Part shown: positions 29,901 through 64,000 of the stretch, piece by piece
Position numbering within the stretch: the first letter of the stretch is position 1
How the letters are laid out: each line of letters starts with the position of its first letter
Assembly (NCBI GenBank): GCA_964017155.1
Contig: OZ024856.1
Span: forward strand, 10,350,882-10,414,881
DNA from: Oasisia sp. SBJ-2009
Lineage: Eukaryota > Annelida > Polychaeta > Sabellida > Siboglinidae
DNA length: 64,000 bases
Direction of reading: 5' to 3'
The notes under the pieces: model-generated
Told to the model about the DNA's origin: nothing
Database searches by the model: none
The model's input: only the letters and a program-made list of their open reading frames with translations
Translations under genes and position numbers: made by a program

Positions 29901-32900
29901 ATAGAAACATGCAGATACAAGGTAAGCACTCTAAAACAGAGACATGTATTTACAAGATAAACTGTATGAATTCTAACATAGATATACACAGGTACAAGAA
30001 AAGCATCTAACTTAGAAATATCTGTATCTGTTTTTGTAACTGGCAAAATGTCCTAGGGACACATCACGCCAGTGTGTATGGTGGGTCGTCTGACTTAATT
30101 GTTTCAATGTTGGATACAATTATTTTGAAATGAGTTTAGATACATATACAAGGTAAACATCCTAACTAGTAAAGACATAAGACTCACAGATATGTGTACC
30201 ATTGTTAAAGAGGAGATCATGTAAAAGACACATGTACAATGTCAGTACCTAATACTGTCTTTGTCATGATTGAGTAGTGAAATATTCAAGATACGCATGC
30301 TAACACAGACATTTGCATGTATATGCCCCATAAGCATACATTACTGGCAATGAGTCATTATCACACCAGACAATGTTTTTACATTGTCTGAAGTCTGTCA
30401 GGTTTTTGCCTGCCTGATTGAGTAGAGTGTCATGTGAATGCTGTGTATGTGGCACTTTTATGTGACCTGTCATGCTATGTCACTACCATACAGTCCCTAA
30501 CAGATGCACAGTGTCAGTGTGTGGGTGCAATGGCAGATTGGCAGTGGGTGATTCCTGAATGTGTCAAGTAAAACATCAAGGCAGTGTTCCTTGATTTGAA
30601 CATTCCTTGTAGCTGCAGACATTTACCTGAATATGTATATCAGGTTATTTCAACCCATTGTGTGCCTTCTTAGAAAGATTTAAATAATTATGATAACATG
30701 CGTAACTGAAAATAAAACAATACCCATTGTAAAACAGAAACGTGGTGCCATCTTACATCTAATGGACAAGTAATATTGATCTAGAAAGTATTAGCAAGGA
30801 GGCACCATTTTAAAGAGCTTATGCAAACATAAAGATTTGTGTATGTGCATGGTTTCACTTTTATAAAAGGGGTATGCTTATATATGGAATTATTTTGGGT
30901 TGTTTGGTTTTTGGAAAGGACAAGTACTTTTTACTGTGTCATTTGTATTTGCAAAAATATTAAGTGCGCTCCAAATACATAACTTGAACACTGAGAAATA
31001 TAACATTTCTGTTACTGTAGTGACTGTATGACTGGTTACATGTATAATTTTGTTTGAAAGAAGATCGCTGAAATCATGTTTTTGTAATTTAATGTTAATA
31101 CTTAGGATGTTGCTGAATTCTTTGGTAAGTCACTGTTAGGTTTTTATGGATGGTGACAATAAATATAAATGACAGTAGTAATCACTGTACTTATTGACCT
31201 TGCAAATTTACCTTAGTCAATGATATCAGGTAATGACTAGACCAAGGGACTGTTTCACTAAGATAAAGATCTCTTACGGAAAATTAATCTTTAAAAATAA
31301 ACTGTTTTAAATTCCAATTGTTTTTTCTCTCTTCAAAACGCATATATCCAGTGCTTTATTACTGAGGACACTATTTCCATGACACACCAGTGACAATGTC
31401 TCGCTGATGCTTCGTGGTGTTGACAGTGTTCAGGTATTCAAGATCACTGTTAAGGATCAAAATTGATTTTAATGTGTACCAACAAAATAATTGAAATGAT
31501 TCCCAGATTATTGTCAATTCTAAAATAATGGTGTCTCTTGTGCTGTCATCCATACAGACTCCTTGCCTAATATATCACATTATTAGAGTATACACATAAG
31601 AAGTCAGGCCAAAGAAATACAGCCAGGTGAAGTGACTATATATAACATTCAGTTGAAGCATGTATACTTTAAACTGGTATTTTTTATAGTGTCAGCACTC
31701 AGCAGAGACATAAATGACTTGTGTGTCAGCAGAGACATAAATGACTTGTGTGTCTGCAGTGACATAAATGACTTGTGTGTCAGCAGTGACATAAATGACT
31801 TTAGTGTCTGCAGTGACATAAATGAGTTGTGTGTCTGCAGTGACATAAATGACTTTTGTGTCAGCAGTGACATAAATGACTTTAGTGTCAGCAGTGACAT
31901 AAATGACTTTAGTGTCTGCAGTGACATAAATGACTTGTGTGTCTGCAGTCACAGTGCAGTGACATAAATGACTTGTGTGTCAGCAGTGACATAAATGACT
32001 TGTGTGTGTGCAGTGACATAAATGACTTGTGTGTCAGCAGAGATATAAATGACTTGTGTCAGCAGTGACATAAATGACTTGTGTGTCAGCAGTGACATAA
32101 ATGACTTGTGTGTCAGCAGTGACATAAATGACTGGTGTATCTGCACTAACGTAAATGACTTGTGTGTGTGTGTGTGCAATGACATAAATGACTTGTATGT
32201 CTGCAGTGATATAAATGACTTGTGTGTGTGTGCAGTGACATAAATGACTTGTGTGTCTGTAGATGAACTCATCGGGTGGCGGAGGCTACTGTGACTGTGG
32301 GGACGTGGAGGCGTGGAAGACGGAGCCCTTCTGTAATGTCCACAAGAAGGGAGTGGAGACACAGAAGAAGGTAACGCATTTGTTCAGTTCACAGCTAATG
32401 TCACCATTGTTTTTCCAGCTATAACATCTGCCATCATAATCCTAGATGAGTTCCTGTCTGGATGTTTCAGTCCTCATTGCAGATCATAAATCCTCAAGAC
32501 CATTCCTTAGTTTTCAGATTCCTCAAGTGGGCGGATACTGTTTGACCTTTCTTGTGGTCTGCAGAAAAAAATACTATTATCCATGCATGTATTATTATAT
32601 TTATTTTGTACTCATTACCCTATTTTATATGTTTCGTTGCTGTCATTTTAAATACTCTGTATGCTTTTTATGGTTTTATGTCTCGTCTCGTTGCTTTACA
32701 CTTGTTTGTTGGAAAATAGTTCAGATGAGCTAATGTTATCAAATTGTCATGTAAATCGATGTTAAATAAAGCTTCTTATATCTTGTATCTTGTCCAGAGT
32801 CGCACGTAGTCTTTCTCTGTTGTGGTGGTTTCACTGTTTTCGTGCCACATTACATGTTATAGTTAGATATATAACTTTCATTTGTGTCTCCATGTGAAGC

Positions 32901-63262: not shown

Positions 63263-64000
63263 GTGAGTGGACAGAGAGTCTCAGGGTGAGTGGACAGAGA
63301 GTCTCAGGGTGACTGGACAGAGAGAGCCAGGGTGAGTGGACAGAGAGTCTCAGGGTGAGTGGACAGAGAGTCCCAGGGTGAGTGGACAGAGAGTCTCAGG
63401 GTGAGTGGACAGAGAGTCTCAGGGTGACTGGACAGAGAGAGCCAGGGTGAGTGGACAGAGAGTCTCAGGGTGAGTGGACAGAGAGTCTCAGGGTGACTGG
63501 ACAGAGAGAGCCAGGGTGAGTGGACAGAGAGTCCCAGGGTGAGTGGACAGAGAGTCTCAGGGTGAGTGGACAGAGAGTCTCAGGGTGACTGGACAGAGAG
63601 AGCCAGGGTGAGTGGACAGAGAGTCTCAGGGTGAGTGGACAGAGAGTCTCAGGGTGAGTGGACAGAGAGTCCCAGGGTGAGTGGACAGAGAGTCTCAGGG
63701 TGAGTGGACAGAGAGAGCCAGGGTGAGTGGACAGAGAGTCCCAGGGTGAGTGGACAGAGAGTCCCAGGGTGAGTGGACAGAGAGTCCCAGGGTGAGTGGA
63801 CAGAGAGTCCCAGGGTGAGTGGACAGAGAGTCCCAGGGTGAGTGGACAGAGAGTCCCAGGGTGAGTGGACAGAGAGTCCCAGGGTGAGTGGACAGAGAGT
63901 CCCAGGGTGAGTGGACAGAGAGTGCCAGGGTGAGTGGACAGAGAGTCCCAGGGTGAGTGGACAGAGAGTGCCAGGGTGAGTGGACAGAGAGTCCCAGGGT
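63247..64000 (+). repeat. UBR1/UBR2: 23-bp minisatellite seeded by exon 33 donor, >30 copies to window edge
   Basis: The exon ends gacagagagagccagg|gtgagtg, and the array unit is gtgagtggacagagagtccc plus agg. More than 30 copies of CCAGG|gtgagtgg follow the true donor, and the array is still running at base 64,000. Confidence 0.97.

Follow-up and report, generated by a model that had tools for sequence, protein, structure and literature searches.

The 64,000-nucleotide stretch analysed here (the window; contig OZ024856.1 of the siboglinid annelid Oasisia sp. SBJ-2009, C3:10350882-10414881) carries on its forward strand a UBR1/2-type E3 ubiquitin ligase gene, hereafter UBR, with tandem repeat arrays at many of its splice junctions. 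Exons 4 to 33, numbered as in a first-pass annotation of the sequence, lie at 32263..63262 (+), and the gene runs past the window end. Placed by hand, these 30 exons give a single open frame of 1127 amino acids; exons 1-3 were not located when the gene was modelled by hand. UBR1 and UBR2 chains in the PDB match the model over nearly its full length (best match, residues 1-1116), and Pfam returns UBR1-like_wing and ClpS. The top protein match among the best 120 of 1034 is UBR2 from Lamellibrachia satsuma, also a siboglinid annelid (89% identity over 80% of the query), a match that makes a vestimentiferan tubeworm the most likely source. Spliced alignment to this protein recovered exons 10 to 33 exactly (with exon 12, not 12b) and extended the gene to its C-terminus, using an aligner written for this work that requires GT/GC and AG intron ends, so that canonical junctions are built in. 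Because the annotated L. satsuma UBR2 is without the early exons, the first six pieces of this alignment are spurious, and support for exons 4-9 comes from the hand model and the PDB match.

Several side observations concern the gene model itself. Exons 12 (39004-39102) and 12b (39145-39243) form a tandem pair, and are probably mutually exclusive because they are of equal length (33 amino acids) and only 42 bp apart. Two vertebrate homologues among the best 120 of 1034 seem to have two such segments in tandem, which suggests that the pair may be old. Between exons 23 and 24, a candidate in-frame cassette exon of 39 nt (52238-52276) is probably not real, because its peptide is absent from the best 120 of 1034 homologues. 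The annotated L. satsuma UBR2 protein lacks the first exons and starts with a repeat-like peptide, as would result if the intron preceding exon 11 held a minisatellite that was mistaken for an exon. A second UBR-like region on contig C1 yielded scattered weak matches only, and an Rfam scan found nothing at the gathering threshold.

Arrays were taken from Tandem Repeats Finder (TRF) output and merged, with microsatellites and GT/AC-only units excluded. We call an array a boundary array if it ends no more than 20 bp from a splice site, a straddling array if it runs across one, and a substantial array if its TRF score is at least 150. All counts come from one genome assembly. At ten UBR junctions in the window, all on the + strand, the array straddles the splice site. 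Eight of these are 5' splice sites: exon 8 (28/56-bp unit, 35085..35690; exon end 35106; 22 exonic bases in the unit), exon 17 (22 bp, 27 copies, 43921..44512; exon end 43936; 16 exonic bases), exon 21 (26/52 bp, 47479..47613; exon end 47489; 11 exonic bases), exon 22 (a 38-bp duplication, 50244..50327; exon end 50253; 10 exonic bases), exon 24 (49 bp with a 147-bp higher order, 54307..54647; exon end 54311; 5 exonic bases), exon 25 (52 bp, 7 copies, 55217..55582; exon end 55260; 44 exonic bases), exon 28 (28 bp, 45 copies, 58001..59252; exon end 58010; 10 exonic bases) and exon 33 (23 bp, 63246..64000; exon end 63262; 17 exonic bases), where the array continues past the window end to 40 copies in total. 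The two 3' splice sites are those of exon 15 (31 bp, 42258..42374; exon start 42361; 14 exonic bases) and exon 30 (41 bp, 15 copies, 60194..60804; exon start 60771; 34 exonic bases).

Other arrays, likewise on the + strand, approach a 3' splice site without crossing it. Those at exon 28 (45 bp, 57207..57824; exon start 57825) and exon 33 (18 bp, 63011..63164; exon start 63165) are flush with the exon. Further arrays stop 2 bp before exon 4 (27 bp, 20 copies, 31699..32260), 13 bp before exon 8 (31 bp, 34868..34969), 7 bp before exon 9 (15 bp, 38 copies, 35883..36449), 12 bp before exon 20 (66 bp, 45732..46127), 6 bp before exon 22 (40 bp, about 60 copies, 47637..50143), 13 bp before exon 23 (15 bp, 51035..51090), 10 bp before exon 24 (54023..54248) and 1 bp before exon 26 (20 bp, 2.3 copies, 56208..56255), the last absent from the first-pass list. 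The consensus of the 40-bp array at 47637-50143 contains a donor-like GTGAGT and an acceptor-like TTCCTGCAG; a miniature intron in each unit is possible. Two arrays fall beyond the 20-bp criterion: a 15-bp array that begins 26 bp past the exon 10 5' splice site (37342..37801, +) and a 25-bp array that stops 32 bp before the exon 16 3' splice site (42871..43014, +). The first-pass annotation had placed array ends at 20 splice sites (counting exon 22 once), and 18 of them lie within 20 bp, the exceptions being these last two. Its statement that the repeat unit itself contains exon-edge bases plus the splice site holds at all nine exons it named (8, 15, 17, 21, 24, 25, 28, 30 and 33), with only 5 exonic bases shared at exon 24, and is likewise true of the 5' splice site of exon 22.

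Positions 31.5-64 kb of the window contain 35 arrays (12.0 kb) and the first 31.5 kb contain 7 (2.3 kb). An intron of the fibrinogen-related (FReD) gene, also in the window, harbours 83 copies of a 20-bp G-rich unit (12663-14321), away from splice sites. Of the 35 arrays, 20 are boundary arrays and 10 straddle a splice site. We compared such counts with three types of null model: reshuffling of arrays within their own introns, placement of one founding unit in the collapsed intron, and, the strictest, a null that takes all arrays out of their introns beforehand. A doubtful exon 23b and a 1-bp exon of the HSP60 model were dropped before counting, and a further UBR array (69499-70159), which lies in joined sequence on an uncertain gene model, is excluded from counts based on 103 arrays, on 47 UBR arrays and on 52 substantial arrays, and included in those based on 104, on the 15 UBR arrays beyond the window and on 53 substantial arrays. 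Of the window's arrays, 33 lie in complete introns. Eighteen of these have an end no more than 20 bp from a splice site, compared with means of 5.5 under own-intron reshuffling (p=0.00025) and 7.4 under the collapsed-intron null (p=0.0005), while 9 straddle, compared with 3.2 (p=0.002) and 4.4 (p=0.02), respectively. Across three nulls that permit straddling, the expected number of straddlers was 3.1-4.4 (p=0.002-0.02). For the whole UBR gene, 22/47 are boundary arrays (7.3-11.1 expected; strictest null p=9e-5) and 11/47 straddle a splice site (4.2-7.2 expected; p=0.0018, 0.014 and 0.058 in the three nulls).

Because the UBR gene had been chosen as striking, we tested nine further genes, CCT1-8 and HSP60, which were picked by family and not by looks. 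Their models were built by spliced alignment to the human proteins; they contain no stop codon, cover most of each protein and, when spliced at the exon-proximal copies, maintain a continuous frame relative to the human proteins. The 112 introns of these genes contain 56 arrays, of which 29 are boundary arrays (11.8-13.0 expected) and 19 straddle a splice site (7.7-8.3 expected; p=0.0002 for both in nulls A and B). The excess remains in the strictest null, where 14.5 and 10.3 are expected (p=1e-5 and 0.0003). When UBR and the chaperonin genes are pooled, 51/103 are boundary arrays (19.2 and 22.6 expected, p=5e-5; strictest null 25.6, p=1e-5) and 30/103 straddle (11.9 and 13.9 expected, p=5e-5; strictest null 17.5, p=0.0002), an excess over neutral placement of approximately 1.7- to 2.5-fold. 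Of the 52 substantial arrays in this set, 38 are boundary arrays, 23 of them straddling, and just 14 are interior. Boundary arrays occur in 45 of the 153 introns of the ten genes and straddling arrays in 29; 30 of the 306 splice sites (9.8%) are straddled. The gene-wide pattern proposed for UBR is not peculiar to it: it extends to nine unrelated genes, the chaperonins, and over all ten genes TRF array ends lie at splice sites more often than shuffled positions do.

These counts bear directly on a purely neutral account, in which duplications arise evenly, exonic ones are purged and those that cross a junction are tolerated just as intronic ones are, with no mutational bias at junctions. Neutral placement predicts a sizeable number of straddlers (12-14 of 103, and 17.5 in the strictest null), a broad exonic share of the unit, hits on both sides of the exon and no clear selection on the spare copies. 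The last three are what we see, and under each of the three nulls the observed counts of 30 and 51 exceed expectation (p no higher than 0.0002). The excess is greatest among many-copy arrays, with 14/30 arrays of at least 8 copies straddling (15/31 with the uncertain-model array; 5-6 expected). Neutral placement also fails to predict the 18-to-3 lean of non-crossing arrays towards the 3' splice site, and we regard it as unlikely to be the whole explanation.

The anatomy of the boundary arrays is informative as to their origin. Straddling arrays occur at both kinds of site (13 at 5' and 17 at 3' splice sites), 28/30 include at least 5 exonic bases, and they reach up to approximately 51 copies of units that range from 20 to approximately 110 bp, in addition to the 49-bp unit that forms a 147-bp higher order. 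How much of the unit is exonic varies broadly, with a mean share of 0.38 (Kolmogorov-Smirnov test against uniform, p=0.03), and because of this wide variation a fixed protein footprint is disfavoured. At the 28 junctions where the unit includes 5 or more exonic bases, the splice dinucleotide is kept in 292/320 spare copies (0.91), compared with 0.90 for other dinucleotides, and the modal fraction is 0.959 at exon-derived and 0.952 at intron-derived positions. The spare splice sites show no clear purging, and no special retention either. This fits the first-pass suggestion that duplicates are tolerated because the proximal site still works. In 12/15 arrays, copies resemble the junction copy more when nearer the exon, as is probably true of tandem arrays in general. 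Unit lengths divisible by 3 seemed to be avoided when the basic units of the window's ten straddlers were inspected by eye, and the larger set showed no such tendency (7/9/12 for remainders 0/1/2).

Base composition offers a second route to the excess. Duplications might arise evenly, with only units that are G+T-rich on the sense strand and GC-richer growing into arrays, such sequence being found at exon edges and in 3' splice regions. Straddling units have a GC content of 0.49 compared with 0.38 in introns without arrays, on the sense strand the units of substantial arrays are rich in G+T (mean 0.587; 37/52 above 0.5), and the larger excess among many-copy arrays is as such growth would predict. 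Substantial interior arrays nevertheless have a background GC content of 0.386 (n=14), and placement weighted by GC expects 17.4 straddlers against the 31/104 found, although this is a weak control whose weights come mostly from short, AT-rich interior arrays. Expandability by composition is a possible explanation for the surplus, albeit a doubtful one, and composition may add to it.

Straddling arrays are local products, because their units carry bases of their own exon and because the exon 33 unit, the only one with a search result, was found in the 764 Mb assembly solely at its own locus. A mobile or dispersed, introner-like repeat inserting at splice sites would account for the many junctions affected, and would place the same sequence at many loci; for the one unit tested this was not the case. 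Insertion of a dispersed element is refuted for the straddling arrays by their local, exon-derived units, and as a general explanation it is close to negligible. Tandem arrays are hard to assemble, which raises the question of artefact. The copies differ from one another, however (approximately 0.90 of dinucleotides are modal), the arrays occur in ten genes with exons intact, and the assembly comprises 33 contigs for 764 Mb. On these grounds we reject an assembly artefact as highly improbable.

A third mechanism would tie the arrays to gene expression: splice- or transcription-coupled breakage, for example paired nicks with fill-in, R-loops or polymerase pausing, could yield tandem duplications at junctions. 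The junction excess and the sense-strand G+T bias of the units are both in line with it, as is the distribution of substantial arrays, with 53 in 154.7 kb of introns of the ten genes compared with 2 in 43.4 kb flanking the chaperonin genes and 1 in window positions 1-31500 (p=1e-6, with an unannotated 60 kb left out). This 60 kb, on the other hand, is nearly as array-rich as the introns, and the strand bias is equally strong in interior arrays (0.582, n=14). We also looked at three SLC6 transporter genes, chosen as presumably tissue-specific, in which arrays straddle 2 of approximately 50 sites, one of the two in a gene whose model is uncertain; fewer straddles would be in keeping with coupled breakage, but the sample is too small for comparison and the contrast with 30/306 is non-significant (Fisher p=0.28). 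The strand bias and the density of arrays within genes would be compatible with coupling to transcription or splicing, and we entertain breakage of this kind tentatively. Among the possible routes listed in the first-pass annotation are replication slippage at AG|GT-rich edges and effects of R-loops or of U1-protected nascent RNA; that the mutation process is directed at such features is a conjecture that goes beyond the 1.7- to 2.5-fold junction excess. Separately, SLC6-family exons on contig C14 (C14:35387764-35389182) lie within an open frame of 4000 codons, which could reflect a very long array next to these exons.

We consider that the arrays are probably 'mirages', that is, minisatellites that began as short tandem duplications spanning an exon/intron junction and were then amplified. 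Each copy carries part of the exon edge together with the splice site. A duplication across one junction would leave a complete junction beside the exon and add only intron, and would be tolerated, while duplications within exons mostly would not. The original junction, in the exon-touching copy, would remain in use, because no other copy adjoins the coding exon without a break. Exon definition, in which short exons are recognised as a unit, would select the nearest pair of sites and leave the remaining copies as intron; this may be why the duplications are harmless. Tolerated duplications would then amplify into minisatellites. Tolerance alone is insufficient, because 30 straddling arrays are seen where 12 to 18 are predicted, and a surplus over neutral would need a higher rate of origin or expansion near junctions. 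We infer that, in transcribed DNA, duplications across a junction originate or grow more often than other duplications.

Several observations weigh against this interpretation. Firstly, 21/51 boundary arrays do not cross the junction. Non-crossing arrays, which stop 0-20 bp short, number 3 at 5' and 18 at 3' splice sites (binomial p=0.0015), and straddling duplication does not account for them, because the exon beyond is unlike their unit. We considered whether they might be decayed straddlers and rejected this, since the unit and the exon beyond share a mean of 5.8 versus 5.9 matches of 15. The earlier proposal of boundary duplication followed by amplification is partly supported, by the excess over neutral placement of founding duplications, and falls short for these 21 arrays. 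Secondly, the statistics for UBR are uneven: straddling alone is borderline in the strictest null (11/47 compared with 7.2, p=0.058), and beyond the window, among 15 arrays that include the one at exon 33, 5 end within 20 bp and 3 straddle, which is non-significant in nulls A and B (p 0.09-0.32). Thirdly, use of the exon-proximal copy, which we take to be the spliced one, is inferred from protein homology, and the GT/AG ends are imposed by the aligner and offer no independent proof. As a per-array mean, moreover, the splice dinucleotide is slightly less intact than other dinucleotides (difference -0.07; 16 arrays above and 10 below). Finally, the unannotated 60 kb has 16 substantial arrays, the FReD gene (two introns as modelled) has one large array 194 and 562 bp from splice sites, and straddles are few in the SLC6 genes.

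Boundary duplication is not a new idea. The name 'mirage' was given to tandem repeats at exon-intron boundaries of amphioxus Adh3, which also occur in the globins BflGb6 and BflGb9 and are reported to be unstable in length, to hold cryptic AG/GT in many of their copies and to leave splicing regular (PMC3087553). A further amphioxus mirage is described in PGBD5, with Adh and troponin C mentioned (PMC3902484). The tubeworm arrays resemble these in being tandem boundary duplications at both 5' and 3' sites, with amphioxus units of 10 to approximately 160 bp, and in that many copies, 292/320 spare copies here, keep AG/GT. They differ in their annelid host, in reaching approximately 51 copies, in affecting 30/306 sites of ten genes and in the measured statistical excess. 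The amphioxus cases, as described, are single genes with reverse-transcription PCR and length polymorphism, whereas the tubeworm arrays are known from sequence alone. We conclude that the tubeworm arrays are probably mirages in another phylum, at a density apparently higher than in amphioxus.

Related structures are known in other systems. In human segmental duplications, internal tandem repeats with units averaging approximately 30 bp occur at exon-intron boundaries and can create introns (PMC2812944). These differ between recent paralogues, whereas the tubeworm genes are conserved and do not appear to be recent duplicates. In the human IFI6 (6-16) gene, a single case, a minisatellite carries a 5' splice site in every unit and several of the donors are used. 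The polyubiquitin gene UBC has dual-specific splice sites in a tandem array (PMC10809524); as in the tubeworm there is a splice motif per unit, but the UBC repeats are coding and variably spliced. The Rogers model derives intron gain from tandem genomic duplication (as cited in PMC3087553), and likewise involves AG/GT-containing sequence duplicated in tandem, although the tubeworm arrays are linked to no new intron position. Among annelids, the accessible text of the Ridgeia genome paper reports TRF use and intron lengths and has nothing on junctions, and introns of earthworm metallothionein are described as containing minisatellites, without a junction claim in the text available (PMC12783039). 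Among the titles and abstract openings listed in searches of an open-licence library, none reports boundary minisatellites or mirages outside amphioxus and human, including in siboglinids, vestimentiferans and annelids.

The wider implications can be put at several levels. For annotation, the L. satsuma UBR2 model, which starts with an apparent translated repeat, is a warning. Junction duplication is the raw material for one model of intron gain, and we found few described cases of it. More speculatively, a transcription- or splicing-coupled process may keep making junction duplications genome-wide in the tubeworm lineage, such that about one-tenth of splice sites would carry spare copies and much intron length would be built from them; the non-exonic 3' excess would then be a signature of damage at the 3' splice region and not of selection. 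With approximately 10% of the sampled splice sites duplicated, some of them tens of times, these genes provide a natural test of how the spliceosome chooses among identical sites, and such a genome also tests intron lengthening and the influence of transcription and splicing on the origin of minisatellites.

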